Assembly (NCBI GenBank): GCA_964036295.1
Contig: OZ038473.1
Location: forward strand, 14,664,001-14,728,000
Direction: 5' to 3'
DNA: 64,000 nt
From: Plumapathes pennacea
Lineage: Eukaryota; Cnidaria; Anthozoa; Antipatharia; Myriopathidae
A model generated the notes under the pieces. That model worked only from the letters and a program-made list of their open reading frames with translations. It did no database searches and was not told the DNA's origin. A program made the translations under genes and the position numbers. Positions 31,109 through 58,051 of the stretch are shown here, piece by piece; the first letter of the stretch is position 1; the number at the start of each line of letters is the position of its first letter.

Positions 31109-32756
31109 ATGATGGAGCAGCACATTGAAAACTCCACTTCTACAATAACTAGTCCTTTACAAGGCAATGGAATGGACGTGAGGCGAAAATGCTCTTTTAA
31201 AGTGGAAGACCTCATTGCAGAAAACAACGAAACATTTCAACAGCGAGAGTGCTCAGTCATGGCCCATGAGTGTTATACAACTACTCTACAATCACGGCTC
31301 GATGACGTGGATGACCGCATTGAATCTGCGACGTCTCAAGGGAAAGGTGAGTTAAAGACTGCAGTGACGCAGTGTCTAAAAAAACCGGGTTCATTATTTG
31401 AAATACCACATCTCCGTCAGTCTACAGTTTACAGCGACAATACTTACAAGAATTTGTTGGGATGGATTTAAAGGAAGGCATAAACTAAACCAATAATAAA
31501 AATATGTATATGTGCATCAAGGCTTCACTTAGCTAAATATAATTGCTTTGTATCTACAGCAAAATAGACTTCTCGTCCATAAATTGCACTAATTTACAAC
31601 TCTTAAAGTGTTTAACACGGTCAAAAGTTACGTTGTATATTATACAAACATTTAATCAATGATACAGCGAAACTGAGCAATCTTTCCTGTGAAGCCTGGC
31701 TAACTTAGCCTCGTTTCTTGAACTCAATTTGTTTGGTAATTTCGTTGTGCAGCAGTTCTCAATTTCTAGAGCGCACAAATTCAGCAGCACGTGATCAAAA
31801 ATGAACTATTCGTCTTTTTTACACTGAACAAAGTACTTTTTCGATAAAGAAACTAGATATTATTTAGAAACGGAAAGATAGTCTTACTTGATTTATAATT
31901 TTATATATTTTTCTATTCTTTTTTTTCTATTTTTTGCGCCGTACTTCTTGAAGGTATTAGCTTACAGCTATTCTGTAATTCGAGGATAAACAAAGTATAT
32001 ACGACGGTAGTTCACAGACTTCTTAGTACCAGTGATAAATATTATATCGTCTTCAGAAGGATTTCGTAACAACGCATCACGTAGTCTATAGACCTCATTT
32101 AAGTGTAACATTAAAATGACTAGAGAAAAATTACAACTGTCGTCTCGTTGCTAATAGCTTTTCGATTTGCATATTAAGTGCTCTCTCTTTCTGTTTGTCC
32201 ATGAGGTCATTCTACCTTTAATTCTTAAAAACACTGTTAATTTTCAGATTCAAAGGGACACGAGGGAATAGAGATGAACCGAAGAAAAAAGTCCCGTTCT
32301 TCATTCTCAGTAGAACAACTTTGTCAACTGGAAAAACGTTTCGGCACTCAGAGATACTTGGGAACCAAAGAAAGAGCAGACTTCGCACAGAAAATCAAGT
32401 TAAGCGACACGCAAGTAAAGACTTGGTTTCAAAACAGACGAATGAAACTAAAGCGACAGAAAGTTGAGGCTGCTAACCGCCTGGCCAAGTTCGCCATGTT
32501 CAACGGCTTAAGTTATAGCACCGGTGCGCGCGTTCACCAGTCCTTCCCTGCGATTCAGTTTAATGCCGGACCGAGTCAGAATTTTGCGCCTCCAGTACCG
32601 CTTGCCCTTCCACGAGTGCTGGTCGATGACCTTTACTACAGAGATGGCGATCAAGCCAGGACTTCTTTGCCAGTGATGTTCTCACCTTATTCGCTCTCAG
32701 AACAGACGGACATGCTCCACGCGAGTACCGCACTGACCAGTTATCACCACATATAA
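31109..32756 (+). CDS. VENT/BSX-like NK-type homeobox protein, 2 exons, 248 aa
   Basis: Exon 1 is 31109-31346 (donor GTGAGT) and exon 2 is 32248-32756 (acceptor ttttcag). The junction completes an Asp codon in phase 1. The homeodomain spans residues 92-151: SRSSFSVEQLCQLEKRF, then RYLGTKERADFA, then LSDTQVKTWFQNRRMKLKRQ. The Thr in helix 3 (VKTWF, position 47) with MKLKRQ is characteristic of VENT proteins, while LEKRF-x-x-QRYL-T-ER is also BSX-like (recalled families). An N-terminal KCSFKVEDLIAEN resembles the FS-x-x-x-LL (eh1/TN-like) repressor motif, so it is likely a nuclear repressor in patterning. An AATAAA follows at 32836-32841. A downstream ATG (32274) just before the homeodomain is less likely because exon 1 splices cleanly. 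VENT versus BSX assignment is open. Confidence 0.82.
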
Positions 32757-32835
32757 ATTATTAATAATACTCAAAAATTATCAATTAATTATTATTGATG
32801 GATTAAATCCTGAAGCAAAACTAGAGCCATGGACA

Positions 32836-32841
32836 AATAAA
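32836..32841 (+). terminator. Polyadenylation signal, VENT/BSX-like gene
   Basis: AATAAA lies 80 bp downstream of the TAA stop of the homeobox gene, followed by A-rich sequence and a short CA repeat. Confidence 0.5.
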
Positions 32842-35800
32842 CAACAAACAAACAAACAAACACACACACAAACACAGTGTTTAGGGTGATAATAGTGACC
32901 CGGGATCAGATGATATCATGGAAAGTCATTTTCAAACTTTAATTGAATTTGTTCAGGTACAATCTTCGAGTTTCACAAGACTCGAGTAAAGGTTATTTCA
33001 GTGTTGTACAGAAGAAACATCGCGTAGGTCTTTCGCTAATAAAGTGCGTGTGCTATGGTACAAACTGCATTCTCTTGGTTCCTCTCGTGTGCGTAATCTT
33101 TTCACTTTGTCAATCAAAGAATACAGGCTAAATGTTTGCTTGTTTCTTCTGCAAATATATGCTATTTACCAGAATTTGGTTTAACATTTCATGGAATAAC
33201 TTTATCGTTAAAAGTCTGAGCGCACGTTCACAAACTGGCCATCCAAGTAAAAGTAAACCCTTTTTATATAAATCGTATCATTAAATATTGAATAGAGATG
33301 TTTTAAATCCATACTGCTCTTACAAAGGAAACATGGCGATTTGGCCGGCACACCTGACTAGTGAGTCACTTGTAGCGATAAAGATAATACCATATAAAAC
33401 AATACGTACTGCACTATACAACTCTGAAATATTCATGAAGCTAATCTATTAGATTTTCACTGTAAGGTTTGTAATAATGATGGTGATTTCTTGATGATCA
33501 TAACCATAACTATATAATATCATCATCAGCTTCACTGATAATATACATAACACGCTTATTATTGAACTTATCACCTTCACTTTCAAAAGATCTTTGGACA
33601 AATATGAAATATTTTCATATTTTGCTTTTTTTGCCCCCATAACATTTACTTCCTAGTTGAGGTAATTGCAGCTAATTTCAAAGTTTGTTAGAGGATGATT
33701 TAGGACGCATGACACCATATTCTTTAGTACTATTATTAATATTTTTAGTTTTCCTCGCCAACTAACATGCCGCACTTTTTCGTCGGAAAAAAAAGAAAAA
33801 AGAAAGAATATAACTGTGTGATTAAGTGGAGTTTCATGGCAAAGCCTCTGGGACATTTTCCGCTCATCAATGCCTCGGCGTGGGTGTTTTCATTTCTTTA
33901 TGAATAACTAAGGATGAAAACTCACTTGCGGACATAACAGTCGCCGATGGTCGCAATCATTTCCCGACATATTGTTAACCCAAACACTTAAAGGTATTAA
34001 TTTAAAATTTACAAGAAGGTAATACACATGGCACACAACACAAACTTCACCCAAGTGCTCAGTGTTTGAATTGTAAACATTGGGTTTTTATTAGACTACC
34101 TTATGCTTGCAGCGTGAAGTTATCACAGCACGAGCGAAATGCAAATTAATTATATAACGCAATAAAACCAGATTTTAATCAAGGTACTTTTAGTTATTTT
34201 GAGTTTATCCTTCTCTGATAAATCGGCAATATATATATATTTTCAACTTTTGTGTGTTTAAAGAAGGCTTCATAAATGTGAATTACATGCTTTTCATTTG
34301 TTTTCACTTACCAGGCGCGTTTCCGGGCACCAACGGAAAGCACGAAATAAGGAAGGAGACATGCAGTCATCGGAGGGCTTTTTAAACATAGTTAATAACA
34401 TTCCCCACTGTTAATTGATTTCTTTCAAACAGTGCATTTTAATTACCCCTTCAGGACAACTTGACGACGTGACATTTAACATGATTCTACTTATTAAGAA
34501 ACTTCTATTCATAACTGAATTAAATGAAACATATAATGGAAAGCTTTCTGTTAGCACGCGCTCACAAATTCGGAGTATTCGTTTTACGATCAAATGCAAC
34601 AACTTGAGTGAGCTGACGTCTAATATGTAGTCAAACACAGATTTCCATATCATCAAACAAAACAAAGTAAAAATTAAAACAATTTTCTTCGTGGCTCCAA
34701 ACCGAAAAAAAAACTTTTAGATTTTAGGAATCACAATCTTGTGAAATTGCATTAAATCTAATTTTAGCATTAATTTTATTTATTGAAAAAAAATTTTTTT
34801 TAAGAGTATAACGAGAAAAAAAGCTGTGGCTTTCCGGTGCAATAGCAAACGTTTTAGATGTATGTAATGCCAAGTTGGCTCTTAGAATTACTATCATATG
34901 TTTTATTTAAACGACTCAAATCACATAGCAACTCAAATCAAATACTAGGCCGATTTACATCCATTATTTTACAAATTGAAAAGACTTTCGATATAAATCC
35001 AGTGGCTTACCTCGGCTCTGAATAAGTTCTCTGTTTAGGTACGTTTTATCAAGAATATACAGAATAGAAAGCTGCCTTCTTACTTAAGCAAAGCAGGTTC
35101 TATGACAAGAAAGAGATTCCATTTGCTGCAAATCTGGACATTAACATCACATACATTTGCGTCGTAACTAAATGGCTGTAACTTAGAGCATCAGGCAAAA
35201 ATTATACTGCACTCATTATACAAACGAGAAAATTATGTTGCAGTCATTCACCCGAAATTTTAAATCAAATTTTCTAGCTGGAAAAAATTTACTATGACTT
35301 TATTAATTGAAGAAAAATGTTCAAATTTAAACATGGAACTAATATTTTCTGATATTGATGTCACTTTCTTTTGTTGTTGTAGTTAGGCAATGTCACAGTA
35401 TAGTATAAAATAGTAAGCGTGATTATTTAATGAATATATAGTGTACTATATGGGGTTGTGCCTTGACAACAGCTATATACAGAGCGCGTGAGATGCATTT
35501 TTGCAACACTCAAATGTTATTTTATTCTATTTTCCTTGGTATAATCATTAGCAAAAGTTAGAACCAAAACAATTTTAAGTTGAATATAGAACTTCCACGA
35601 TCCATCTCAATTCAATATAACAATACCAGTGTATTTTTCGTCTTCTCTCAAAAGATTATTAAGATTTAGTCGGATGCCTTTTTTGCCATCAGTGATTTGG
35701 TAGTCAACTATATGTTCAACTATCTTCCATAAGGGAGTATAGAAAGTCCATTACCGCACATAAAGTTAAAATGTCTCCATTTAACAAGAATCTTAACAAG

Positions 35801-36517
35801 TTCATCAGTGGAAGTCTCACCCACTCTTACACAAAACGTAAAGGAAATTTTAAAAGTGCAAATTAACGAAACTGAAAACAATTACAAAATGAGGAGGAAA
35901 TAACAAGCCTGTAAGAAAGCAGGTGGGGTGAAGTTATTAGGACTTTTTCACATTGCCATCCTGTTATTTGAACATTTGGAAAATTAATAAAAACATTCTG
36001 TACACTGCTGTATTTCGATTTGACGCGAAGTTTACTTAAAAATTTAAACGATAGACATAACTGCCTTTCTCCACAAACTATTTTTTAATTCACAATAGCT
36101 GTGACTCTACCGCATTTCAAGCCTGAAAAACCCACAACAGATTTATTTTCAATCTCCGTTCTTTAGAAATTCTTTTTCGCCTGATGCACAATTGTTTTTT
36201 ATGTATATGACTAAAACATATACAGCAAGCTCTTAATGGATTTATTAATGCCTTAACTGATGTACATTTCAAAACGGTAAAAATAAAAAGTTATCAAGAC
36301 CTGTTTTAACAAGTTAATCGATCGCTCCTAACTTCTACGAAAGCTTCACAAGTGGTAGGTAAGAGACTACATTCGTTTCAAATGCTCTTGACGTGCTTTT
36401 GGCCAGCATGCAACAAAGTTTTGATGAAGAATAACTAAAAAGTTTGTTCTAGCTTAAAGCGTAACGAGGGCGCTGTTATGTAAGCGAAAAGTTCTCACTT
36501 TCAGACTTAAAAATGAC

Positions 36518-36546
36518 AAAAAAAAAAAAAAAAAAAAAAAAAAAAA
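36518..36546. repeat. Poly-A tract
   Basis: A run of 29 A. No LINE or SINE body is visible next to it, so a retroposon tail cannot be claimed. Confidence 0.85.
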
Positions 36547-37619
36547 CGCCTACACTTAACCCAGGTTTTGCCTTATCGTGCTTTTTAACAACCAAAGCTC
36601 AGAAGTATATGACAAACAACGTATAATTTGTTGCTCGTCCTCGTTGTTTTAATCGTATAACACTTAACACAAACGACACTCTGGTGATCTTCATCCTGAA
36701 CTTCAGGCATACAGAAGCTACACTATCTCAAATAGAAATAAATCGTTAGCGCATTCTTTTAGTCAATGATTACTTTCTTTAAATCACCGAAATATTTGCC
36801 ATTATTATATTTAACGATGGATTTGAACCATTCTAACTTAGATTAACTTGAAGAATGAAATCTGACAAGTAATTTTTCCAAGCATGCAACAGATTGATAT
36901 TAAGTAAAATACTCAAACTTTAAAAGCTAAGGAATTTGTTAATTTGTATCCTGATACTGAGAAACGTACTGGCCTAGTGTCACAGTAATATGTGAAAGAC
37001 CTCGGTATATTTCAATAACAAATGTTGGAAATGGGATTTTCATCTGCAAGTGCGGGTGTACGGCTTAACGTCACCTCAAGCGCTATACCACTCCGTCTTA
37101 ATTTGTTCGAAAAATGTGAAAAAGAATTCATTTAGTAACATTAAATTTTCTTTTTAACTTGGCACTTGTTCAGCAGAGTTTACTATTGCTCCTTAGTGCA
37201 TGATGACTGCTTTGAATTTAAAGATTAAGCATCAAAGTTTCCGATTCATGTCGCCAGCTAGAGAGTACCGGTAGACTGTATTACAAGCGGTGCCGCCGAA
37301 CCCGCTGAGCAACCCAAGATGCAGATTAACAAAACGAAGAATTAAATTCACTCCTGGGTAATGTAAGCTGTACCAAGCCGGCAATCATTACTATGTAATT
37401 GGCACCTCGGTATGCAAAGTGCTGCGAGTATTACTTTTTATTACGCGCCATCTGCGCGCCAAACTGTGCACACATTTAATGGCGGGCTCCACTAAATTTA
37501 ATCAGATTCTTTTCCTACAGAGTCTTACCGCCATTTCAGGATATTGAAAACGTCTTTTTTGTCAAATATTCTACCAGCTTACGGCGCATGCGCTGGGTTA
37601 AAGAAGCCTATCACTGCAC

Positions 37620-37828
37620 ATCAACAACACGACATAATCCTTAAAAACATCTCCTAAACACTAAACCTTAACAAGGCGACATAATCCTTAAAAACTTCTC
37701 CTAAACACTAAACTTTAACAACACGACATAATCCTCAAAAACTTCTCCTAAACACTAAACCTTAACAACACGACATAATCCTCAAAAACTTCTCCTAAAC
37801 ACTAAACCTTAACAACACGACATAATCC
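37620..37828. repeat. 46-bp tandem repeat, about 4.5 copies
   Basis: Each unit carries ACGACATAATCC, TTAAAAAC or TCAAAAAC, then TCTCCTAAACACTAAAC and TTAACAA. The first unit is slightly longer and the last is cut off at ACGACATAATCCCAGC. Copies differ by a few bases only. Confidence 0.92.
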
Positions 37829-40599
37829 CAGCACTTTCCCAGTTTTTACCGCGATGGTGCTAGAGTATACATTTCTTCCAGTTCTCATTGCAACCCCAGA
37901 TAATAGTACAGAGGTTATTAAACTGAACCTCTACAAGATAAATATAGTAAAACGCTATTTTTGGCATGTTGTTCCTAAATTTATTGCGGATTTTTCTTCT
38001 CCACTGCTTCTTTCATCTTTCCGGCTCTCAATCTGTGTATCTGTGTCTTAAAGTGTTAGTCCATTTTTCAGAAAGGCTTATTAAATAACTTAAAATTTCT
38101 CAGAAAACATCTATAAATTCTTTGTGCATGATGCAGTCCAAAATCAATCGACCATTTTTACGCTAAATATTCAATGATTAACATCAAGCAAACATCAAAT
38201 GCCTTCGGAATACTTCGGACATAAGCTTCTCTTCTGTAGTATATTTCGCTTCTTCTATGTCCATATCGCGCCATAAAGCCGCTCAACTAGGGTAAATAAG
38301 TAATTAGAAGTTCTCAGACAAACGTTATTAAATGAACACTCATATCTGTATTGTGTACTTGACAAACAAATATCATCCATGTAAAGTGTTCTTTCAAGTA
38401 AGTGTGTTTGTTTACATTGGAGAGGGATTAATAGAGCAGCCGTATTGAATTTGCTGCCTTTATCTGGTCAATAAAAATCAGTTCATAAACAATAGCTGAT
38501 CTACAGTGTCATCTGCGAATTATGTTGATCTAGTGTCATTTTCTAGATTACATTTGGTTGAGATCTCGCCGTTGTTTAACAGAACATCTTTTTCACTTCT
38601 ATTTTGCACTATTGTGATTCTCTTTTGTGAGTCGCGCGACGGTGTTTACAGAACTGTAGCTTACAGCTGCTTTTGCTTTTGAAGTCATATGCATGTGAAC
38701 AAGCGATTCATCCATTGTCTTCACCAATGAATCTCTTACGAGTCTCTTCTAAAAGCTTCTTTCACTCTGCCCTGCCAACTTCCTAACTCGTTGTCAATGC
38801 AATTTCCTCTCTTCATAGTACAGCTCAGTAAATCCGTTTTCATAGATTATTAACAACAGGGTTTATTTTGCCTCAAGCACAGCGATACCGCACGGAGCGG
38901 AACTTTTCATGTTAATGATTTAATTTCCTGCCCTTGTCTTCGAATAATGACTTCTCTACAAAAGCATGCTTTGTTCGCAGCTAAACCAGAAAGCCTGCCG
39001 GTAGTTGTCTCGGGGGACATGGCAAACACACAAACCTTTGACAAAATCTTGAGGCAAACCCGAGTAATCATAATATGGGCACTGCACAAAACACACCTGT
39101 CGTTTATGTTAACTTCCTTACAAACCTTTATAAGCCCAGCCTCCAGTCGCAAGCGACTTCTTCAATAAACAGTACAATGGCTGCTTCAATAAAGGACATT
39201 AATAAAGCCGAATTGTGTAATAGACGTCATTGTTTGTGGCTGAACACGCCGCTTCTCAACATCAAGGAATGGCGGAACGAGTATAGCTCGCCTCATTAAC
39301 GCCCTATCTCTAAAACTAACAGCGCCTTGTGAATAGGCGGCAAGAAGCACAAAATGATCCCAGATATTATCTACACATGACGATCACATATTAATCTTAA
39401 TTGCCGTGGTTAGTAACAATGTTGTTAACTTAGTATTTAAGCGTTTACCGTCATATCGTACAAAAAGGCTGTGGTACTGCATCAACGAAAGCTAGATCTG
39501 GATCACGCCGAAAAGAACATCCTTGCTCCTTGGTCAGAGCAATTGATTGTAAATGGAAAAATTGAATTATGGCACTCTTTGGTGAGCTATTGAGGCCGAT
39601 AAGATTGATTTATTCTCGCCTATAAATGAGACTTTGATAAGCAAAATATAGAATGATCAAATGGTTGCGATTATTTTATATTGGATAAAAATAGATAAAC
39701 TTATGAACTCATAGATAAAGCTCGCATTATGTATTCATACGATATATTGGCAAATATTTGCAATTTAGGCCTCAAAATAATGCAGCAATGGAAATGTTTA
39801 TTGAGTTATAGTCCGATCTAGTTGTACATTGTTTGTGAGAGGTTCCGTTTCAAAATGAAAAGCATCGCGTTATCTTAAGCAAACAACATGACTCTATCAC
39901 CATATGTCGGGCTAAGTACTGTTCACCTTTTCCGGGCCAACTGTTTACTTTGATAAACATTCAAAATATTTGTCCCCTGAAATTTTCAACAGTTTACCTT
40001 GAGGCGAAAATCTAACCAGCTCTTAGGTCGCGAGTGAGAAAAGAGAAACTATAGTTGTGCTTCTGTAAATAATAAGTCTTGTGTTTGGACTCTATTTGCT
40101 TTCTTTACTTTGTTAATTTACTTGGAAGCATGCTGGTTTAGCATAGATCATAGATAAAGGTTGTACAATTATTTTGTCGGCAAGATCACAGCAGTGTCAT
40201 GCGTCAAACGCAGCCAAGCCAATGGGTGTTTTTGTTTGAGTCTTTTCATTGGGGTCCTGAAGTGGTTTCCTTTCCATCTTGCTGCGAGGCCGGGCGTTTG
40301 CTGCTAGTATTTTACCACGGGCTAGTGTCAGTTCTTATCCTGTCGAGGTTGTGGGAGAGTTAAGTGTGGACGAGGTGTTAATGGTCCTGCCGAGTCATCG
40401 CCACTTCAACTTGTCATATCATTCAATTAATTTAGGTGCCAATTATGCGTGCATGAGCTAATAAAAACAAGGCCCTTAAAACGTCGCTGCTTCTATTGTG
40501 CCGGCAGACGCTCTAAGAAGAGACAGCGACCAACAGTAAACCTTGATAAAGATCACTGGAGCGCGCGCGGAGTGAACGTACACAAGCTCGTCTGAAAGC

Positions 40600-41935
<1,336 letters not shown>

Positions 41936-42340
41936 AACTGATTTGAACATCTCGGCGACCCAGTGGGTAATTTATGTCTGTGAGAATCAAACTTCGCCGT
42001 CTGGTGTGACTAAACATAACTTAACTATAAATTCATAGAGGGAAAAGACGTACGGGTCCTTCAACATGTGCTCAAAGAGCCATGCTCTATGACTTCAAAT
42101 TTATCAAAAAGAGATACAAAAAATGAGGGCTACAGATTTTCCTATTTCCAATAGAGTAGCTGTACAGATTAATCGTGCACTTTGAGCTATGAGAGTTCGT
42201 GACGTAACTATGTACAAGAGTCGTATAAAATTAAGAATTTCGAGAGCTTTTAGGTTGTAAAGGAACCGTCTAAGGATATTTAACTGCATCTGAGCCCTAA
42301 CATTTATGTACATATGTAAGATTTCGGGATAAGAGTATGA

Positions 42341-42346
42341 AATAAA
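42341..42346 (+). terminator. Polyadenylation signal, NK1 gene
   Basis: AATAAA is the first good signal after the TAA stop of NK1, about 405 bp downstream, implying a 3' UTR of about 430 bp. Confidence 0.5.
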
Positions 42347-42409
42347 CCACATTGAGTGACTTGTACAGTAACCTTCAGTTAGAATAGAAGGAACGATTGC
42401 AATTCTCAA

Positions 42410-45400: not shown

Positions 45401-47100
45401 GTGGGGCTAAACCTCGTTTGACGGAAGGCTAAATTCACGAGAAAAGTTGCCGATTTTCAGCTACTTTACGGAACTGTCGACAGGTAACGAAAACGCATGG
45501 AAAGTAAAGCTTAAATGTAAAATAAAAAACCCAAATATAGAAACTGGCTGAATTCTTATCAAGCCAAAGAGCATATCAAGAGATTAAACGATTCACTTGC
45601 AATTTTTACAAACTGTGTCGTTTTAAAAATCAATTTTAAATTCCAGAACATAGTTTAGGCTTTATCAAAACAACTCAAGGAACTCAGAAGTACAAATACC
45701 TACTATATTCGTGGGCTTTTTAAGCTGAGAAAAAAATCATAAAGATTTAGTAAACTACACAAAAAATCTATCATTTGGTGGAAAAAACGTCGGCAGACTA
45801 CAAAGCAAAGAGATGTGTCAATCAAGCTGTATTAGTCTCCAATTTGTTTACTTGACCAGTCGGTGTCTTTAGTCTTAGAAGATATTAACCGTGGCAAACA
45901 ATTTAATTAAATGAGTTCTTCAAAAGCTAAGTAAATAAACGTAATGAGAAAATACACAATACGGTGGGACAATTAGGTCGATTTGAGAAGATTCCATAAA
46001 AACATGCGCTGCGGTCGATGATTGTGTCCAAAAAGATACAAAGGGTTCCCGCTTTATTCCAATCAACCGCGATGCTCTTTGTCATTAAGAATCATTACCC
46101 CAAGTTCTAAACTGTGTTGCTTGCTAAAAATACCGCGAGTCATAAAGCAGTGCACAGCAGTTTTACAAAACTGATCCAATGCCTAAAGCTATTTCATGAA
46201 CACGTGGAGTGTATTGCCAACATACTATGAGTCAAAACAAGTTCTTTGCAAATGAATGGCTGATTAGTCAGTAATGAGAGTATCATTGACATCTCGTATT
46301 TGAACACGTGCGTTAGGCTATTGAGTAATGAAATAATTATCCTAAGATTGGCCTGTTTTTTTTTTTTCTTTTTCTTCTGCACTTTATGGCCAGTTAAGCA
46401 GCCCATTTTATAAGCTGTCATGAAAGATGCGAGTCGAAGCCTTCATGGCTAAGTACACAACGTTTGTGCATCTGTCAATGACATATATTAGTGAAATTCT
46501 TCTCTGAAAGAGAAAAGTAAATATTTCACACGGAGTGAAAAGCTTGTGTACCGATAAATTAAAGGCATTATACACTGTAAAAGCTTGTGTTTGTTTTAGC
46601 AAACTATTCAATTTAGTCGTTTGGCATTGTATTCAGCGCCGTTCATCCCGAGTTCTCTTTCCTGTACCGCCTTGCCCAAAGATCTTTACACCTGTATATT
46701 CCTGAGAGTACAACAACGTCTGGAACAGATAAATGGATTAACTCGTATAGCCGTAAAGTATTCAAAACTGTTCTCGCTGTTTTCTAGATCATCGAACTTA
46801 TTAACGAGGCGGCCCGGAGTCGGCTCACCTTGAAAGTTTAATCCCCCCGGGGACATATCCAGATAAAGAAGACTAATAAAGCTCCCGACGGGAAGTTTCA
46901 ATGAGCCTTAAATCAACGTCAATAGGAGCGGTAAGCAATAAAGAGATCCAAATTGCCCTCAATCAATTTAATCGATTAAATCGTGCCATCCAGGTCATAG
47001 CTATTGACCCTCGGAAACAATTAACGGCACATGAAGTCCTTGGTAACATAATTGACGAGTTTCTCGACCTGTTGCAGCTGAACACCTTTCTGTTCTTAAA
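42410..47100. other. Gap downstream of NK1
   Basis: No supported gene. A minus-strand 80-aa frame at 43018-43260 has four closely spaced cysteines (CALCEQCKTKLKCLTEC) and a possible acceptor near 43212, but no partner exon or poly-A signal was found. Other frames are short and without domains. Simple A-rich tracts occur at about 43410 and 46355. Confidence 0.45.
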
Positions 47101-47154
47101 AATGGCTTCTGTTTTTCACTCTCGATTCGCCTCGTGTTCACCACGTCTCTCCCT

Positions 47155-47195
47155 TTGGCTCGAAGAGCCCAGGAATGCCCGAAACGTTGTCACCT
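47155..47195 (+). ncRNA. Degenerate hammerhead-ribozyme-like motif
   Basis: GGCTCGAAGAGCCCAGG followed by AATGCCCGAAACGTTGTC resembles the hammerhead core CUGANGA-stem II-GAAAC-GUC found in Penelope-like retroelements of many animals. Here the CUGANGA box is altered and the two stem II arms (GCCC and GCCC) do not pair, so it should be inactive if it was ever a ribozyme. The nearby open frames (46686-47197) show no reverse transcriptase motif. Confidence 0.15.
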
Positions 47196-47882
47196 GACTA
47201 AAAGTCTAAGCCTTGTGAAAAAGAAGTCTAATCAGACGAAGCTGAGAAACTTGGGTGGACCTTTCCTTGCTTATAGAACACACGATGAGTGAATTTGGTG
47301 CGGGTCCAAAAGTCCAAAAGTCCAAAATTTATTTATTTATAAAATACTTGTACATCTTACAATTATTGCTCTGCCCAATCCCCTCCCACTCTCTCGAGCA
47401 AGTGCTAACCAATGAATTATCAAGAGAATTTACGATAAAGAATTGACTCCGTGCACGACAGACTCAGTTTCGCCGATAACAACGCCATGTTTCGTCCAGT
47501 GACTATTATGGGATGACCTGACCGTGTGGTGGTCTAGCACTAAAACATCACTAGCCGAATAGCAGGTAACGCCTTTTTTCTTTATCTCAGAAAACATTTG
47601 GGTTCAGTGCTAAGAATTCCATGAAGATAAATTCTCTGCATAAAGTCCGACCCCTGCTTCCTGGACATTCCATAGACTGGAGGTAATTACAACTGACTAA
47701 TCCTTAACGTCGGTTCCTGATAGATTTACTTAGCAATTCTTGGTCCAGTCCACATTCCCATGCTGTATCTAGTCCACTTCGTAAAAGTAGTTTAATAAAC
47801 TTATTTCAAACGGATGCAATGTACGTGTAGTCTGCGTTTTCTCAACAAACTACATAACAGTATACAATTAATAAATAGAGGA

Positions 47883-47983
47883 TATTACACGGCGGCGCGA
47901 AGATATGAATTTTATTTTCGAGTGGTAAAATATTGTTTTTACCACGAGAAAATAAAATCCATGTCTTCAAGCCGTCGTGTAAT
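47883..47983. mobile_element. 101-bp foldback element
   Basis: ATTACACGGCGGC at the left pairs with GCCGTCGTGTAAT at the right, and GAATTTTATTTTCGAGTGGT pairs with ACCACGAGAAAATAAAATCC across a short loop. It resembles the foldback near 25269 in size and in its TTTTATTTT arms, so both may belong to one family. Confidence 0.7.
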
Positions 47984-49406
47984 TTTCTTCTTATTATATT
48001 AGACACGAGTGCTATATAATTATTGTAACGTGCCCACTCGACTTGCCTCAGTCCGAGAAGTACGCATTTCTTAACGATATAAAATTTGTACTGCCTGAAA
48101 CTATGACAGAGGTTCGTGTATCACACATACAAAATCAAACAAAATCCGATAGAGCGATGTACCCCTTGGTGTACCCTAAAATTGCAAATCGGACGCGCGA
48201 ACCGCAAGGGAAACAAGTTTGAATGACTATTGTGTTTCGATTAGCGTACTCGGCCTCAGTCTCGTACTCGGCCAGCTCAACTGTTGCGCAAAAATGACAG
48301 AAATCGGCAGACGTTGACCACGTGGTTATGAACCTAATACAACAGTCGATTGATCTATTCGGAACGCGTTACAATCCTGCCAGGCGAGAAGTGCCGATAC
48401 TTCAATTATATTGCTCAAAAAACGGGACAACAGTATGTCCATAACTTTAGGCAAATTGTTTCCACTCACCTGTTTCATCTGTTCTTTATCTCATCTGTTC
48501 TTTACAAGAGCGGCTTCTCTGTTTCTGCACGTGTGTTTTTAAAGAAAACGCCAACAACTCCGGTGTTCTGAGTTTTCACTAGTCACTGGAAGTAACGTGA
48601 AGTGAACATTAGTGGAGGCCATTTAAACTTCATAACGCCTATACAGTTGTTTGCGCCTTCTTTGGCTGTTTCATCACAGCATCCAAATAACCCGTTATGA
48701 CATTCAGAAAGTCGCAGGAAATGAAACTCTTCAACACCTCACCTTGACAGAATAGGACTCCAAGTGAGAGAGCTATATCTCGTGACAGGACTCCAAGTGA
48801 GCCGGGAGCTTTATCACCTAGCGGTACATATATCTTCTGGGTCCCAGGTCAAGCTTGTTTGCTCGGTCAAGATTCAAAATGGCTGACAAACCTTCACGAC
48901 CTCATGAGCTCTGCTGACTTTAAACCTCCCATCCACGTAAAGTGTCCATTTTCGCCAGGTTTTCATCCAACTGAAACACAAAAGAACGGGTTATAGTGAA
49001 CGTTCACTTAAATTTTGTTCTTTGGGAGGGAAGAGTGAGCAGTAACAGATAGGTGATCCTTGTTGTCACGTGATGCATTTGAATAGTAAGCGACCGTTCC
49101 GCGTTCTGCCGGGACGGGTGTGGACTGGGCGCGACCGGTTATGAGAAGATTCTATCTGAAGTGACCCACAGAGCCAATAGTATTGATTGACATTTTGAAT
49201 TTGTATGTCTATGAAAAGTGATCCAGTGCTTCTGACCTATGGAACTGAAGGAAGCGAGGATTTATGATAATTCATGAGTAAGCAGCGTTAGCCAAACCCT
49301 TGTGTTCAGACGGTTTTACCCTAATTCATTGCGGCCAAGTCGCATACTTTGACTCAGCCTTAAAGAACTCCAACCACTCAACTTTACAACGAAACCTAAA
49401 GACATC

Positions 49407-49479
49407 CTCGTTCCAAGGCTCTTTTCCCTACCCCGCTCCCCAGGCGAGGGGGCGGGGAGGGGAAAGAGCCTGGAACGAG
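49407..49479. repeat. GC-rich hairpin
   Basis: CTCGTTCCAAGGCTCTTTTC pairs with GAAAGAGCCTGGAACGAG, and CCCTACCCCGCTCCCC pairs with GGGGCGGGGAGGGG across an AGGCGAG loop. GC content is far above the surroundings. Could be a small foldback transposon or a structured RNA; there is no evidence for transcription. Confidence 0.65.
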
Positions 49480-49740
49480 AATGACCTAAAGGTGTGACTC
49501 AAATGAAAGCTCTGAACGGCCAGGCACTTTCTATAGTGTTCACTTTCAACTCCTAAACTAGTCAAATGAACTCCTGGCCACTTAAATGAAAGCTCTTGAT
49601 GACCACATTCTAACAATGCTTTGCGCTTTGTTGAGTAGAGTTTATCCCCGAGCGAAGCGAGGGTAATATTTACGACGCTAATGCAGCATAGTCGCCTCAT
49701 TTGAAGACTCCAAGCGTGTCGCCATCTCGAAATTTAATGT

Positions 49741-49742
<2 letters not shown>

Positions 49743-49771
<29 letters not shown>
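49743..49771. repeat. (GT)n microsatellite
   Basis: About 14 GT dinucleotides, ending at GGTACGAC. Confidence 0.9.
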
Positions 49772-49867
49772 GTACGACTTTTTAGGCCAGGTTCCTAAGG
49801 CAATGACGTAATAATCATCGATTAGCGTCTCCGCCAGTGTTTTTAAAAGATTTGAACGAAGCAATAA

Positions 49868-50175
49868 TTGTACGTAACTGGTTTCACGAAAATGATTTTG
49901 AAAACTGGAAAACTTGAAACAGAACGTTCTCGCAAAGCTCGTCTTCAAAAGAGAAGGGAACAGGTACGGGCAAGGCGAAATCGTGAAACGATCGAACAGC
50001 GCCAAATACGTCTAGAGAAAAGACGACAAACATGTTATAACCGACAGCATCATGAACGGAAGCGTGCCGAAGAAATGGCTCCGCAAAGGGAACAGCGCTT
50101 GAAAGAAAATCGGGAGCTTCAGACGTCGTTTTGTGTTAAACTCAGATACTTACTCAGAAAGGACAAGCAACAAAG
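49868..50175 (+). pseudogene. Basic-repeat fragment of a transposon-type protein (Helitron-like N-terminus)
   Basis: The frame holds two to three copies of an Arg/Glu-rich repeat: ETERSRKARLQKRREQVRAR, then RETIEQRQIRLEKRRQ, then KRAEEMAPQREQRLKENREL. Repeats of the form ETxEQRxxRLxxRRE are common at the N-terminus of Helitron-type helicase proteins and other repetitive animal proteins (recalled). The homologous part ends at KDKQQ near a GTTAGT donor at about 50176; beyond it the frame is unrelated hydrophobic sequence to 50368. No helicase or Rep domain follows within the window, so this is a stranded exon or fragment. Confidence 0.4.
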
Positions 50176-51034
50176 GTTAGTCAGTGGAAATCGAACAATC
50201 ACCGTGACAAATATATTCTACCCGTATCTTGTAACTCGATCACTTCAAGAATGTATTAGAATCTGTATGCTGATCATTTTCCCTCGAAGTATTGTTTTAA
50301 TACGCTTCTGTCGCCAGTTTCGGCTACCGTATTCGCTCAGAGCAATCGGAACTTGGAGTCTTGAATGATTTAGTCAGAGGTCTTATTTTTTCTTTCAAGA
50401 CTAAAACTGTAACAAATGCTGTAATCTGACATGCGGTGATTGCAGCGAGAATCGTTCACAAGCCCTTAGAAGTATGACTAGGTCTGAAGCCCATGTATAA
50501 TTTGAAGTAAACCGTTCAAGTTTTGTTTTGATTCTGGGAGAATTTGAGCGGGTTCACATACAAAACAATTCGAACTCATTAAAAAATGCATGCCTGAGTC
50601 TGGAGCATGCAGTCCAGAGTAAAACAAATCGCACAGGAAGCCTATTTAATTGTACTGCCTATGAATTCAAAATTGGAAAATCAGTGTTTCTTTTTTTCCG
50701 TACTACGACGGCCGACCAGCTTCAAAATTTGAGTATTAATATTTGAGAACGTGCTTGGCAGACTGTATGAATTAATTTGACGTGCCGACCGTGGGAAATA
50801 CGTACTTCGTCACGCAATCGACTCTTATATAACACACACCATTCTTTTTCTCCTTCCTTTGCGTGAAGCACTTGACTTCGAAGAAAAGATTGAGTAAACA
50901 TTTCGGTAAAACAAAGGCTACTCTTGTTGGGAGCCGTACCAAAGTAAAAGTCCTATCAATGGCAGAGCGAGGGGGTATCTGCGATTATCGTATTTCTAGT
51001 GTTATTTTTAGTTAGTTCTATTTGGACACAAGCC

Positions 51035-51487
51035 CCCCGGGGGGGAGGGGGTACTCAAAGGACTTTTGTATGGGGAGGCTACGCCCGGACTGTCAACCCC
51101 TTACCCTTTAAAATACCATCCTGGGGGCAAAATTGGGACCCTTTTATATACCTCCAGTACAAATGCACCCCTTTTTTATACCTGCCGTGGGGTCTGGGGT
51201 CTGGCCCGAGCGTCCGGCAGACGATTCCACGGCGGGGTGCTTCCCACTTTTAACAAGGTGGAGTTTCCGGTCTTCCGCCGTTTTTTTTCCCCGGTTTTTC
51301 CTGGCGTTTTTCGTACCCCTTTAAAATACCAAAATTATTTCTTCACTCCATCCTTTTTATTGACCTTTAAAATACCTAAAAATCGTCACTTTCCTATACC
51401 CTTTTTATACCTCGATTGTAAAAATACACCCCTTTCGGGCGGAGCCTCCCCGTATAGCCGATCATAGGGAGTACCCCCCCCCCCGGG
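51035..51487. mobile_element. hAT-like GGGGTACTC element, 453 bp, intact ends
   Basis: The left end CCCCGGGGGGGAGGGGGTACTC and right end (inverse) CCCGGGGGGGGGGGGTACTCC are followed by a second inverted pair GGGGAGGCTACGCCC and GGGCGGAGCCTCCCC. The exact 8-bp flank CACAAGCC occurs at 51027-51034 and 51488-51495, a target-site duplication of hAT length. The interior repeats CCCTTTAAAATACC-like units and contains no transposase; the 133-aa frame across it is an artefact of low stop density. This is the best preserved copy of the family in the window. Confidence 0.8.
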
Positions 51488-51499
51488 CACAAGCCAGGG

Positions 51500-54400
51500 A
51501 AGTGATCAAACCGCATGTCGAAAAGACATGACGTCATACAGTAAAAAGGGCAACTGATTCGTACTTTTCCTGTGAAATGGTTTGTGAAGTTTAGTGAAAA
51601 GGGGAGATAAAAAGCAGATTAGGTTTTTCCTTTTGACACTCAAAAAATTATCACAGTAGTGCGGATGGAAAGCTCATGTCCATTATATCTCAAGAAAGAT
51701 TTAAAATGAACTTCATTTGGCAGGTATTTTCCTCGACCACTTACAGATGCTGCACGGAATTAAAAGTTGTTTGCCTGGGTCTATTATTTAAGCTGCCGGT
51801 ACCGGCTAAAGTCGCCAAAAAATTTCAGTTAAACTTGTAGTTTTTTATTCAGTAACTTCAATACCAACCGGTTTTTACTTGTTGTTTGAAGGTGCTTTAA
51901 TGATCAGAGTTGCATTGTGTCAACACGCTAACGACAGCTTTGTTTCACAGGTAGTTAGTAATAACATGTACTAGTCGCTTCGCCCAACATATCAGTTTCC
52001 TCTATTAAAGTAAGATTATTGTTTAGGAAATAGTTAAGCTTCGGACAAATTATCAACGCTATTTGTTTGTAGTTTATTCACCACTAAATGTCAGAAGCTA
52101 AGTGACATTGACCGTGTAGTAACGTCTCTGAATATTTCCTCTAGTAGTTATCATCTATTTTCTTGGTACCATTGAGGTTCCATTTATTTTATCAAAAGGA
52201 TCTTTTAATTCTAGTAAATGTTCGATTGTGAATTCATTTTCCGCGAGCACCCTAACCCCTTTATCACATTGCTACATCTCCGCCTTCGCGCGGGTCACTA
52301 ATGGCTTGTAACGCCCAATTACCGGCACTTTAGCCATTCTTAATTCAAGTCTACAAATTGAAAATAAGATATCTTCCATTACAGGACATGACTCTATGTT
52401 AATTTCCCTCGCAAAGATAAAGTAGAGCTCAGAAGAACTCAGTTTATCTGAACCGGGTTTGCTGAATGCAGTTTACGTGGTAATTTCATCTAATGAAAGG
52501 TCTTCCTTTCAGCCTAACACTTATAACCTCTTTGTTCACTTGCGACTGAAATTACAATTTATTGAAATTAGTTCATGGTGTTCTACACAAAACTCATAAA
52601 ACCACACCTGTTCTTTAGACGGAACAAGTGCCAGCCGACAACACTGTGAGACAACAGAAGATATTTCCATCCAGTCTATTACCTATTCTCTGCATTCCCT
52701 TGTACAAAATGCTAAAAAGTTATAATTATCGTGGTTAAGATTTGTGTTCAGACCAGGTTTCAGTTTTAAAGAAGGCCATGGCTGAAAAGGGCCGATCAAA
52801 GTGGAAGCTCCAATAAAACACTTTATCCCCCTATATGAACAGAAATACTTGCATTTATTTGGTGAAGAGATCGCGTTTGAAATTGGCGCACTGTGTTGAC
52901 TTTCATAAACTGGCTAAATTTTCAACTTGTTTATGTAGCACGGCCTAGTATTGAGAGAACAATTTCTGTAAAAAAAAAAAAGTCTTGGGTGTAAATAAGC
53001 CAAGCGGAAGATGTCTCAGCACATGTCTCTATCCTCTTTCCAACTAAGAAGTTGATAAAACGACTGATGTCAACAAACACAAAATTGAGTGATTTCTTTA
53101 TAAGAAGAAAATTGATGCGGTGAATTAATATCTCCAGCAAGTGGCCTAAATGTGGCTCCATATCTATATTATATATTTTTGCCTTTATAGCATAGAGTGT
53201 AATGATCGATTTATTCGTGCGGGCTGCACAGAATTTGGCCGTGAAAGGAAGCGGGTTTATGTTATAACTGAAGGTTCAGTACAGGTTTTCAGAGAGAAAC
53301 AGGTTGTTCTGTTGTAATTTATGTCAAACTATAGTACTTACTCTTGCACTAATATTACCATGAAAGGGAAAAATGGCTGGATCAGTCATATTAACTCCTA
53401 CCAAACAGACATTCAGATAAATTTGCGAGTCTACAAAGCATATTTGTGGCATACAATATTGACTCATAACTTCCGAGAGATGTCTGAGAGGGTATTGTCG
53501 AGTAAATTAGGAGCTGAGAGATGTAAGGAGAGCAGTCTAGACTGATATAGAAGCCATAGTGTCCATACGCCTGTACATAAGCCCCCTCCCTTGATACCCC
53601 ATATACAAACAAATAAAAGGACGGGCTGTCACTTCACCGGGTATTCAATCTGTGAAGAAATACAGCTCGTTTCACTCAGTTTATAAAGCAGGAACACTAT
53701 TATCTTCCCGACACTTAGGACAAAGCAACTAAAGCTAACGAGACAGCTTTCACTTCTGACTTAAAAGTTTCTTTAGTAATTTCACAGATTTAGAAATACG
53801 CCGAGGATACACGACGCATGTAGTTCAATTTAATAAAACGGGTGCTGACCGTGTGCGCTGCCAACTGGTTCTGTTAGAAATAATTCTACCACACCACATA
53901 CAAGTATCTATTGGATCTCGGGTTTAGACACTTCTTTTGGAACACGGAAAAGTTGTTTCTGGTTGTGTCAAAGAACATGGTGGCTCATTTTATTCAGATG
54001 CGAAGGAGCACGGGTTCACTGTTATAACAAACAATCGTGGCTTGTGCCCATTACAGTCGATAACAAAGTAAAGAGATAATTAATTTGTGCGCCAAATTCG
54101 CTTAGTTACCAAAAAGATGGTGCTAAATTTGCAGAATACTTTATCTCACACCAACGCTAACCCATCTAAAAAACAATCTAGGCAAAAAGCCACAAACTTC
54201 ACGAAGACGTGAGCATGGATGGGATATACACGGACGCCAACTCCCTTATCACAGATTTACATCAACACCAGCGAGCATCATGCTGTCTTTTGTGAATTTG
54301 TCCTGCATGCAACTGTTACTTGTTCATCAGGTCGACTGCTGCTCAAATTCAACCCTTTACTGTATGTCAGATTTACAGCTTATGTGCTTTGGCTGGCCGG

Positions 54401-57080
54401 GTTTTATCAACTTAATCTTTCGTCAAACCTCAGCACATGGAAAAAAATGTATTATTACTGTTTCCCCGATGACCAGCAACGAATCAATAATAGAGAAGGC
54501 GAGAATTATACAGTATGATACGATCTCGTAAAAACTGAATGCCTCAGTAAGATAAACAGCCCTCTTAATTTGACCGTTTTCAACCGCATATCGGCGATAC
54601 ACGGTCTTTCACGTCTGTATATTTACGTCAGTAGACTTGCCTTTGGGTATCTCCAATAGTTGCGACAGATAAAGGCACAGGCAGCTGAAAACTATCTAGC
54701 TTTTGATTCAGTAGTGAAATACCTCGAAACGACTTTCTTGTGAAATAAGACAAACCAGCATAAACCCGTTGCCAAATATAAACCAAAAGGAGTGACCATA
54801 GGTAATTGTTTTTGAAGCATGTGATAATTTGTCAGTTTTCAACACGCTTTGTTTTGCGCCATGTTTCTTCAAGTGTCGCGCTGTGGTTTTATTTTGTATT
54901 GCTTTTAAATTAATTACCACACGAGCTTCTCTTCTCTCTGAGAAGTTTCTCTTAAATGCGTTGATCTAAACATTTTGTTGTATCACGGGCGGTTTTGAGA
55001 CGAAGAGCCACCAGTTGCTTATAATGTGAACTGAATGAAGTGGCCAGTTTGAATATATCAATATTAAAACAAACAAAAATTCTTCTCTTCTTATGGAGGC
55101 TTTTGATTATCAGAAATAACACCATGAATAGCAATTTTGATGCGATACTGCATGAAAGTGGAACAAAAACGCAACACTGAATTATTTTAGTTTGAGTTTT
55201 CTTGCGTCCATAACTCTATCTTTATACACGTGCAAACATTTAGAAATGAAAATTGTATTGCTCGTCGTAAAGTCGATTGAAAATAAAACCCAAGGCAATA
55301 CTCTACTCGGCTAACTAGCAACGTGCTTGGTATGAAAAGCCCCTTGAAAATTGCTCACGGCAGTAACCTCCCTCCCCCCCCCCCCCCCCGGGCATGGGAC
55401 CAACCTTCTAACGCCCGCCGAACCCTCATAAGCTTCTAAAATCGTAATTGATTTAAGCTTATCTCTACATCAATGGAAATGCTACCATTAGAGGAAAATC
55501 TTTAAAGATAGTCAGATAGCGTCACGTCGGTCAATAATGACAGTTCTACACTTCCTTGGGTCCTGCAACTCTTCACCACGGGAACGAAAAATATATATTA
55601 CAACATCAATTTGAAATTCTGCCTCCCGAAAGTATCGCAGTAAACGGTCATTACTGTCAGTTATGATATCAATATTTGATGCTGTTTATTCGCAAAGCTA
55701 ATTTCCTAATGGATTAATATTTGGCTATTTTTTAAAAGTAAACATTTTAAACTGGTGGCATCTTCCCCAGTTCACAGAACTGAAACTTGTAATCAGGCGT
55801 TCCGTCAGTTGCAACTTTTAAAAGTACATCCATAAATGTCAGCGAGTGTTCATAACGACACTTTCCTCTCTGCACGCTCATTTCTTTTAAAAGGTTATAT
55901 CTACACATGTATATAGGCTTGTGTGGACCAGAAGCCACAGTATATCTACACATATATATAGGCTTGAATGTGGACCTGAAGCCACAGTACATCTACACAT
56001 GTATATAGGCTTATATGTGGACCTGAAGCCACAGTATATCTTTAGGTACGAACAAGACTGCTTATACAATTCAACGCAAATGTAGGATATTATCATTAAT
56101 ATGAGTGAAGTGTCGCAGCAGGGGGTAGAAACAAGAGTTTCTATAAACAAAATGTGCCACTGCGACGTTCTTCAATTTTATTTCATATTTATATGGTATA
56201 TTTACAACAACTTCTGTTTCGCAATAGATTTTCGAGCAAACGAAATGTTCATTTGTCCTTGTGGACAGTTTCCATTGATCCATAACATCAATTGATTCTC
56301 GTCCTGCCCATTTCGTACCTGTTAACATAAGCTCTCTTTCAAAGGATCCATTATAATGGTAAAATCAACTCGCTTTTGTGGACTCTTCAAAAGGTTTTTT
56401 CTCCTTTACAAGAAGCAATAAAGGCGGTAATTGAGTTTTACTTCTGCGAGGTAATTCATTAGCACCTGGGTGGCGTCGACCCTTTGGTCTCGGCAGGCAA
56501 GCACTTTCGCAATAGCAAAGAGTCTCAAATCTCAATAAAAGTCCAAATGATAGAGAATACACGAAAAAGGAAATCGACCAGAAGTTAAATTTCACGAAGA
56601 AAATATCCAAAATTAAAATGTAAACATAATTTATGACAAAGCTCAGCAATATCTTCAAGCTGTTTGTTTAATAGCTCTCTCGTAGAATAATTATTGGTAA
56701 GAACGTAAAAACTTCTAAGGACAACGTATGATCATAGGACTGCATTTGTGCCCACATACACGGCTGTATCCACTCGACATGTTGTTATAAAATTATTTAA
56801 ATAAATAAGACTAGCATAAACACAAGCCGACATTTTTCGACTTTGCGCAGCATACAAATTAATAGTTTCTGCCTTCCCAGCTTACGCCATAGTGAAAAAA
56901 GACCACTTTATAAACTGGTTATCTTGAAAGTAAAACAATTGCTTTTCGGCAAAGCCAGTCTCGGGACTAATCATTTCATCATTCAATAAATAGGTGTGAA
57001 TTTCAGGATAAACACACTTTGGGCTGTTCAGAACCCATGCAAATCTGCGCTAAACGTCGACTCACAGCTATAAACGTACG
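51500..57080. other. Gap between the hAT-like element and HMX
   Basis: No gene can be supported. A 15-C tract at about 55374-55388 ending in GGGC may be the edge of another G-run element. The 47-bp tandem repeat at 55899-56042 lies here. Remaining frames are short, in AT-rich sequence, without domains or splice logic. Being adjacent to a developmental gene, parts may be regulatory. Confidence 0.45.
55899..56042. repeat. About 47-bp tandem repeat, three copies
   Basis: Each copy contains ATCTACACATGTATATAGGC and GTGGACCTGAAGCCACAGTA. Copies begin near 55897, 55943 and 55990 with a few substitutions. Confidence 0.88.
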
Positions 57081-57149
57081 TGTGCAGAAATGTTTAAGGT
57101 GGACGACATTTTACATGGTTTATACACAAGTCTAATAAATATGACTAAT

Positions 57150-57155
57150 TTTAAT
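57150..57155 (-). terminator. Variant polyadenylation signal, HMX gene
   Basis: ATTAAA on the minus strand (TTTAAT on +) lies about 105 bp past the HMX stop. No AATAAA occurs in the first 500 bp, so this common variant is the best candidate. Confidence 0.3.
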
Positions 57156-57258
57156 ACTAACCGTACCTTGTTCATCCTAAGCTATAATAAAATTCGTATT
57201 CTAAGCGCGACCGCGTTGACTATCCAACAGACCGGAGAATGGCATCACTGTATAGGCT

Positions 57259-58051
57259 CTATACCAAAGATGGTAAGGAAGATCTTAATTGCGGCGGCAG
57301 GAATTGAGGGTAAGATTGTGGGCACGGGAGGCCAGTATACGACGGGTGGTGGTAGAAAGGAAACGGCAAACTATGTGTCGCGAGGTCCCCATGTCTCGCT
57401 TGTTCGCGGTACAGAATTGATGGTACGCGCGCCATACGTTGATGGTTCGCTTGCGCGAGGCTGGCGGCTTCCATTTCCGCAGCTAACTGTCTCTTCCACT
57501 TGTTTCTCCGATTCTGGAACCAAATCTTTACTTGAGTCTCTGTCAAGTGCAACTGCGCTGCAAGTCCAGCACGCTCTGCCGACGACAGGTAGCGCTTTAT
57601 TTCAAACGTGGATTCTAGTTGGTAAACTTGACTGCGCGAGAACACTGTCCTGGTCTTTTTCTTGCGTCGCTTCTTCAAGCCATCCTTCCGTTCATCTTCG
57701 TGATACACGTCTTCGTCCGATAAACCTGAACAAGACAATAATGTGAGTATTTTCTATCATTTCATGCAAATTAATATAACATCATCAATTCATGAAATGC
57801 ATAGTTCATCGCAGGCTAAAAGCACGGAAGCAAACTTTCTCACCTCGTGAAGAATTCTTAGCCCAAGAACTAAAGCGTAGCTCTGTAACATCGTCGCATT
57901 CAAGCTCTGGGGCAGTTCTGTGCATCTCCGCTAAGCCGCGCTCGCCGGCCATGGTCTTCACTGGCTCCCTTCTGTCTACGCTATCCTTCAAAATGGAATT
58001 ACTAAGAATACTCGAGATCGAGAACGGATTCGCTCTTGCTTTTTCCTCCAT
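57259..58051 (-). CDS. hmx: HMX (NK5) homeobox transcription factor, 2 exons, 224 aa
   Basis: Exon 1 is 57844-58051 (donor GTGAGA) and exon 2 is 57259-57725 (acceptor ttgttcag), joined in phase 1 at a Gly codon. The homeodomain (residues 91-150) reads [39 protein letters not shown] and [17 protein letters not shown], diagnostic of HMX/NK5. It is followed by the HMX-specific tail [20 protein letters not shown] and P-ILY. The N-terminus has [10 protein letters not shown], an eh1/TN-type repressor motif. The start is the first in-frame ATG ahead of that motif. In other animals HMX proteins act in sensory-organ and neural development (family knowledge); the role here is inference. The gene is on the strand opposite to NK1 and converges on it, 15.3 kb between stop codons. 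The 218-aa plus-strand frame over this locus is an antisense shadow. Confidence 0.95.

Follow-up and report, generated by a model that had tools for sequence, protein, structure and literature searches.

The question raised by this locus is whether a tight group of NK-type homeobox genes in the antipatharian Plumapathes pennacea is a surviving piece of the ancient NK cluster, and to which family the first of these genes belongs. We analysed a stretch of 64,000 bases, hereafter the window (contig OZ038473.1 of assembly GCA_964036295.1, here C12; C12:14664001-14728000), which contains no N letters and lies about 0.2 Mb from the end of this 14.9-Mb contig, in an assembly of 290 Mb in 24 contigs. 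Our results suggest that the block is such a fragment, that its first gene, gene A, is a Vent gene, and that the arrangement has been inherited from a time before cnidarians and bilaterians parted, a reading that we hold to be fairly probable.

Four homeobox genes lie side by side on C12

A six-frame motif search of the window, using WF.NR-type and QV.VWF-type patterns, revealed three homeodomains, those of gene A, NK1 and HMX (NK5), and a whole-genome homeodomain search found the same three there and none besides. After HMX, 8.7 kb beyond the window, comes a fourth, HHEX. The parts are as follows, with Pfam E-values for PF00046:

31109-31346, + strand: gene A, exon 1 (donor AAG/GTGAGT, phase 1; EH1-type motif CSFKVEDLIAEN near the N-terminus)
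31347-32247, + strand: gene A, modelled intron
32248-32756, + strand: gene A, exon 2 (whole homeodomain at about 32286-32456, stop at 32756; 248-residue model; Pfam 1.6e-19)
40600-40912, + strand: NK1, exon 1 (donor ATG/GTGAGT, phase 1; two EH1-type motifs)
41427-41935, + strand: NK1, exon 2 (whole homeodomain at about 41567-41737; 273-residue model; Pfam 1.5e-22)
57844-58051, - strand: HMX/NK5, exon 1 (donor GAG/GTGAGA, phase 1; EH1-type motif)
57259-57725, - strand: HMX/NK5, exon 2 (whole homeodomain at about 57490-57660; 224-residue model; Pfam 5.9e-23)
C12:14736667-14736828, - strand: HHEX homeodomain (Pfam 2.3e-23; outside the window)

The three genes of the window were each modelled with two exons, a GT-AG intron in phase 1 and a homeodomain unbroken in exon 2, their first exons (238, 313 and 208 bases for gene A, NK1 and HMX) all ending in phase 1. 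Note that the splice sites were picked by consensus, without transcripts, that gene A and NK1 have many other in-frame pairs, and that the NK1 acceptor is one choice among several in-frame ones. The open reading frame (ORF) upstream of the HHEX homeodomain, which carries FYIDDIL, is likely the first exon of HHEX.

The order and strands are LRRC27-like (-), gene A (+), NK1 (+), HMX (-) and HHEX (-), and the four homeobox genes stand side by side inside 43,000 bases, their homeodomains together spanning 40,542. Between the three that lie in the window we found no gene-like coding ORF: the best intergenic score (ORFs of at least 60 residues, 75 of 262 listed) was 11.2, at 49868-50365, whereas the ORFs that hold the homeodomains scored 32.6, 34.2 and 40.0, and a Pfam search of four intergenic ORFs (49868-50365, 46880-47194, 51012-51464 and 54127-54528) gave no match. 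On these two grounds we rejected a coding gene lying between these three.

The NK1 homeodomain is identical at 53/55 positions to human NKX1-2, that of HMX at 50/55 to human HMX3 and that of HHEX at 46/55 to its namesake. Each is a reciprocal best match among the 90 genome homeodomains described below, and each groups with its family in the tree (99.6/100, 99.9/99 and 99.1/100, respectively). An earlier note on this DNA, made from the letters alone, had named NK1 and HMX, placed three NK-type homeobox genes within 27 kb and seen no other gene between NK1 and HMX; motif search, genome search, Pfam and the identities above bear this out. The ends that it gave for its block fall on start codons, that of gene A at 31109 and that of HMX at 58051; its three genes stand as given, but the block runs further, with HHEX after HMX.

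The block belongs to a contig rich in NK genes

To place the block we relied on the genome search, in which 150 of 224 homeodomain candidates were scored and 90 of the 150 pulled (30 loci and 60 regions) and their homeodomains read. The pulled set omits 59 of the scored matches, most of them partial (46 residues) and none on C12; 74 candidates stayed unscored. The comparison set of 90 homeodomains consists of gene A and 89 of the 90 pulled loci; the remaining locus, which has an insertion, was dropped. Families were named from a single reference each and from the tree; the BARX1 reference came from the PDB, and the domain compared has 55 residues. With these names, the contig reads:

C12 at 0.78 and 1.92 Mb: EMX
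C12 at 2.98 Mb: NK6
C12 at 8.73 Mb: NK7-like gene
C12 at 10.12 Mb: LBX
C12 at 10.18 Mb: NK3 and NK4, 4 kb apart
C12 at 10.30 Mb: MSX
C12 at 13.57 Mb: Hox-type gene
C12 at 14.696, 14.706, 14.721 and 14.737 Mb: gene A, NK1, HMX and HHEX

An NK cluster is recognised by several NK families on one chromosome, and C12 carries NK1, NK5, MSX, NK3, NK4, LBX, NK6 and the NK7-like gene, a label that we presume, the reference set being without NK7. Since MSX, NK3, NK4, LBX, NK6, EMX and the NK7-like gene share the contig, we take the block to be an NK-cluster fragment, as had been proposed from the window alone. That proposal came with a list of genes to look for by extending the scaffold: Msx, NK3, NK4, Lbx, NK6 and an NK7-like gene did turn up on C12, but no clear TLX was present among the 90 homeodomains, and a Tlx or Bsx with an intron-split homeobox could be missed because unpulled and unscored candidates remain. 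C12, with about 5% of the bases, holds 31 of the 150 scored matches. In simulations of 31 random points on a 14.9-Mb contig, any four fell within 42 kb in 53 of 20,000 runs; this null assumes uniform placement, though tandem homeobox duplication is common on C12.

Gene A is probably a Vent gene

Gene A most likely belongs to the Vent (Ventx) family as a cnidarian representative, and this genome would then hold three such genes; we make this assignment with moderate confidence, from homeodomain comparisons and position. Its homeodomain groups with VENTX and Xvent2 in a 27-sequence tree (78.9/66) and again in a 74-sequence tree (89.1/80), where it is joined by two genes of contig C9, L059 (at 11544607) and L071 (at 10211185); for this larger tree we dropped 40 of the pulled loci, which were near-duplicates or of other classes, and any with X or odd length. 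With VENTX removed, gene A pairs with Xvent2 at 79.9/81. Approximately unbiased (AU) tests on 41 sequences, which reject none of the placements tried, gave 0.673 for VENT, 0.463 for NANOG, 0.358 for BSX, 0.241 for NK1, 0.221 for BARX and 0.083 for TLX. Moreover, linkage to NK1 and HMX is what one would ask of a Vent gene, and gene A has it by its order in the window. The combination of T47 and M54 with no W56 occurs in 3 of the 90 genome homeodomains (gene A, L059 and L071) and matches the two Vent sequences; because BSX, bsh and NANOG carry it as well as VENTX and Xvent2, this signature is not diagnostic of Vent. The earlier label, VENT/BSX-like, agrees with identities, signature residues and trees.

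The two C9 genes are paralogues of gene A. A genome search with gene A exon 2 ranks them first after gene A itself, and one alignment covers residues 3 to 138, far beyond the homeodomain. The modelled proteins match at E 3e-28 and 3e-29, with the qualification that the L094 model used in this comparison has an unconvincing splice pair. They also have a tail motif in common, which reads LPRVLVDDLYYRD in gene A and, in its C9 relatives, TPRVLYNDLYQAD and TPCLFYNNLPQQD. Gene A is more firmly tied to these two genes than to Vent. We take the vertebrate Vent proteins to have an N-terminal motif of the FSVEWLAQS type; L059 has FSVEDLAQS before the homeodomain, close to that form, and gene A has FKVEDLIAE.

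Several results weigh against the Vent assignment and the descent that we propose. Counted by identical residues, gene A comes closest to BSX (35/55), then TLX1 and BARX1 (31/55 each), above Xvent2 (30/55) and VENTX (26/55). Removal of Xvent2 leaves the grouping of gene A with Vent without support (0/12). The AU test on 27 sequences rejects the EMX placement only (0.020), the other values being 0.051 for NK1, 0.052 for MSX, 0.101 for HMX, 0.227 for TLX, 0.285 for BSX and 0.311 for BARX, and that on 41 sequences rejects none of nine placements. The genome homeodomain nearest VENTX is L059; for Xvent2 an EMX gene and L059 share first place, and gene A is outside the top four of the 90 for both. 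When the 41-sequence tree is built without constraint, Vent falls next to the three paralogues, but they do not form an exclusive clade under every rooting. As for descent, the oyster cluster that lists a Vent-like gene after NK1 is termed atomized, its order being read from the sequence of a list in the text (PMC7566022), and in the Nematostella study the NK clusters of cnidarians are described as largely disintegrated (PMC10719294).

Three identities were tried and set aside: gene A as EMX, rejected by the AU test on 27 sequences; gene A as a true BSX, for which it is too diverged; and gene A as a copy of NK1, MSX or HMX, which the AU values given above do not formally reject, but its homeodomain is no more than 27/55-29/55 alike to those of NK1 and HMX.

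An alternative that we judge unlikely is that gene A and the C9 pair are Bsx/Barx-like, or form a lineage-specific NK-like (NKL) family without a one-to-one bilaterian counterpart, and stand beside NK1 by chance or through an old local duplication. The top plain identity of gene A is to BSX, both the BSX and the BARX placements survive the two AU tests, and large homeobox expansions are present in this genome. However, human BSX and fly bsh agree at 52/55 positions, so that a true Bsx, with its highly conserved homeodomain, should be far closer than the 35/55 of gene A, and clear Barx-like genes sit on C5 and C6. Moreover, human BSX lies at 11q24.1, away from 10q26 (PMC2211742), and in the oyster list it is a Vent-like gene, not Bsx, that follows NK1 (PMC7566022).

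It is quite unlikely, in our view, that gene A is instead Tlx-like, in which case the neighbour of NK1 would be Tlx and not Vent, and the block would be an NK-cluster fragment all the same. In the PDB, gene A matches 3a01_A best (65 bits) if an engineered engrailed pair is set aside, and we take this entry to be fly C15/clawless, a Tlx; the TLX placement survives both AU tests; and the lack of any other clear TLX among the 90 homeodomains would fit. A Tlx-like gene is also described among anemone NK genes (PMC10719294, PMC9444052). Against this, Tlx hardly varies (human TLX1 and C15 agree at 49/55 positions), and gene A, at 31/55 with TLX1, has M54 and L56 in place of the expected T54 and W56; TLX groups away from gene A in the 27- and 74-sequence trees; and in the part of a cnidarian homeobox table that concerns us the Tlx count is 0 for Nematostella and Acropora (PMC7642931).

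That the tight block is secondary, by misassembly or by rejoining after cluster break-up, is very improbable: secondary NK reclustering is discussed for drosophilids (PMC7566022), but the window is free of N, and NK1-NK5 and NK1/NK5/Hhex linkages are independently reported in anemones and jellyfish (PMC10719294, PMC9444052, PMC12053456, PMC7305137).

An LRRC27-like gene flanks the block

On its left the block is bordered by a leucine-rich repeat (LRR) gene:

21668-25133, - strand: LRRC27-like gene, 5' part, six exons, head to head with gene A
25133-25014, 24948-24818, 24540-24482, 24242-24157, 22143-22074 and 21733-21668, - strand: its exons
17243-17157 and 16126-15995 (within 15995-17243), - strand: possible tail pieces, weak collinear tblastn matches to human LRRC27

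The joined frame is open over 177 residues (Pfam LRR_8, 7.5e-16) and is 42% identical to human LRRC27 over 158 residues; reversed and shuffled controls gave no match. A true LRRC27 would have, behind its LRR block, a coiled-coil tail collinear with the human one; the tail matches here (E 0.048 and 0.14) are not significant singly, and two other weak matches lie elsewhere in the window. Because the best PDB matches of the protein are other LRR proteins, LRRD1 and SHOC2, and a locus on C8 also matches LRRC27, we consider this flank a lead and not proof. The C8 locus (L096, C8:12317770-12318228) is an unbroken LRR frame of 292 residues, 46% identical to the multi-exon gene of the window, and is possibly its paralogue or retrocopy. 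Human LRRC27 lies, we presume, at 10q26.3, and the words LRRC27, VENTX and NKX6-2 reportedly co-occur in a paper on ring chromosome 10, which is a word match only.

Origin and possible role of the block

The linkage is most simply put down to genes that were duplicated in tandem in an early animal and have not been separated since. That gene A is the neighbour of NK1 is probably an ancestral state. What the sequence shows directly is which genes there are, in what order and on which strands, four homeodomains in 40.5 kb, the other NK genes of C12 and the two paralogues of gene A; that the order stems from common descent, that gene A belongs to Vent and that the proteins act as repressors is what we infer. 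More tentatively, at somewhat under even chances, the Vent family already existed beside NK1 in the cnidarian-bilaterian ancestor, and the order LRRC27-Vent-NK1-HMX, with HHEX, has persisted in anthozoans and oysters and, in looser form, in human 10q26.

The four proteins are probably ordinary homeodomain transcription factors that would bind DNA through the homeodomain. Groucho-dependent repression is established for EH1 motifs; the EH1-type motif near the N-terminus of each protein suggests that they probably repress their targets through Groucho-type corepressors.

Vertebrate Vent genes have roles in ventral fate and pluripotency. If the assignment is true, the family dates to before the cnidarian-bilaterian split and its birthplace is the NK cluster, beside NK1, and the 'Tlx-like' gene of the anemones' NK clusters, whose identity is uncertain, could be renamed and tested. 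A compact four-gene block would also suit the question of whether NK clusters persist by shared regulation or by mere inertia.

Other observations in the window and the genome

The window contains large tandem arrays (6675-7434, 8070-10744 and 25802-26083), made of a 10-base unit repeated about 75 times, A-rich repeats with periods of about 105, 193 and 410 bases, and a 21-base unit repeated about 13 times. Scans of the window for tRNAs and with Rfam returned nothing, and a viral-contig scan matched 35 stretches with no relative confirmed.

Elsewhere on C12, five same-strand Noto/Vax-like homeobox copies (L048, L049, L064, L061 and L056, at 4160006, 4656522, 5158738, 5800172 and 6510424) of about 950 bases, 91.5-99% identical, are spread over 2.35 Mb. 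They look as if the stretch had been duplicated and scattered recently, and at least one copy seems to be decaying. The genome has many Noto/Vax-like copies; the genome search for further copies of these five gave only short, weaker pieces elsewhere. Four genes that we take to be Mox-like stand in a row. This row, the Hox-type gene on C12, the many Noto/Vax-like copies and the lack of a clear TLX among the homeodomains compared are consistent with an anthozoan. An array of near-identical NKL-type homeodomains (KQRPLFS...) at C3:20445502-20598204 has no close match among the references used and looks lineage-specific, and dense arrays of 46-residue partial homeodomain matches occupy C1:36224579-36439034 and C7:18984082-19043620, the pattern expected of intron-split homeoboxes.

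Finally, a bacterial contig, NZ_SMME01000804.1 of Sansalvadorimonas verongulae RKSG058, presumably a sponge isolate, has two intron-less, animal-type homeodomain ORFs (1-489 and 880-1929, both on the + strand; Pfam 2e-20 and 1.4e-20) in tandem at its end, followed by ordinary-looking bacterial genes. Either horizontal transfer into the bacterium or a chimeric contig would explain them.

Comparison with known systems

The published systems are compared here through the passages that deal with NK linkage. Sea anemones come closest. NK1 and NK5 are a pair in Edwardsia elegans (PMC12053456), Nematostella has both on one chromosome and a Tlx-like gene on its chromosome 5 (PMC10719294), and in Exaiptasia scaffold 8 unites NK1/3/4/5/6, Lbx, Msx, TlxL and Hhex with a Hox gene (PMC9444052). 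As on C12, NK1 and NK5 are linked and NK3, NK4, NK6, Msx, Lbx and Hhex occur together; Nematostella also has NK7 on its NK chromosome, and Exaiptasia, with its Hox gene and TlxL, is much like C12. The difference is that the anemone passages name a Tlx-like gene and not a Vent-like one, and that gene is possibly gene A. A deep-sea anemone has a Hox and NK mega-array on one chromosome (PMC10598428); the Nematostella study reports cnidarian Hox and NK clusters to have mostly fallen apart and finds no clear topologically associated domains (PMC10719294). Jellyfish scaffolds combine Hox-type genes with Emx, NK1, NK5 and Hhex (PMC7305137). In Sanderia malayensis, NK1, NK5 and Hhex are thus linked and Hox-type and Emx genes share their scaffolds, as on C12, but the passage has no Vent-like gene, and a word-start search of that paper's main text found no 'vent'.

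With NK1-NK5 linkage published for anemones and NK1/NK5/Hhex linkage for jellyfish, a block of this kind is to be expected in an anthozoan. The earlier note was right to see an NK-cluster fragment in the NK1-HMX linkage, but the linkage was already in print (PMC12053456, PMC10719294, PMC9444052, PMC7305137). Its suggestion that the VENT/BSX-like neighbour is unreported is only partly right, because a Vent-like gene is listed after NK5 and NK1 in the oyster (PMC7566022) and the Tlx-like gene of anemones may be gene A. An orthologue of gene A may already be drawn in published figures or supplements, perhaps as Tlx-like. The relevant part of the cnidarian homeobox table has no Vent row among its NKL families (PMC7642931), the main text of a Nematostella paper on bone morphogenetic protein (BMP) targets lacks the whole words 'vent' and 'vent2' (PMC10849676), and no title among the literature matches listed announces a cnidarian Vent gene beside NK1. 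A search of literature text for printed homeodomain strings gave a single match, a Bsh paper.

Ventx itself was counted as an orphan family without invertebrate orthologues in a 2007 human survey (PMC2211742) and among NK-cluster genes elsewhere (PMC9976460); it is reported missing in an onychophoran and two tardigrades, and is not among nine ancestral NK-cluster genes, in the passage concerned (PMC6050708). Human 10q26 offers the families of the block in looser form. Its genes are, we take it, spread over megabases, with HHEX outside the band. VENTX and NKX6-2 map to 10q26.3 and NKX1-2, HMX2 and HMX3 to 10q26.13, so that the five fall in one band (PMC2211742).

For scaffold 11,030 of the oyster Magallana hongkongensis, NK5, NK1 and Vent-like are listed in that order, which is the order of the window if the list follows the chromosome, and the other NK genes lie on the same scaffold; the oyster differs in that the NK genes are dispersed among non-homeobox genes and that Tlx, Vax and Noto are also listed (PMC7566022). 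What may be new in Plumapathes pennacea is the reading of the block's first gene as Vent-like, in the order listed for the oyster.

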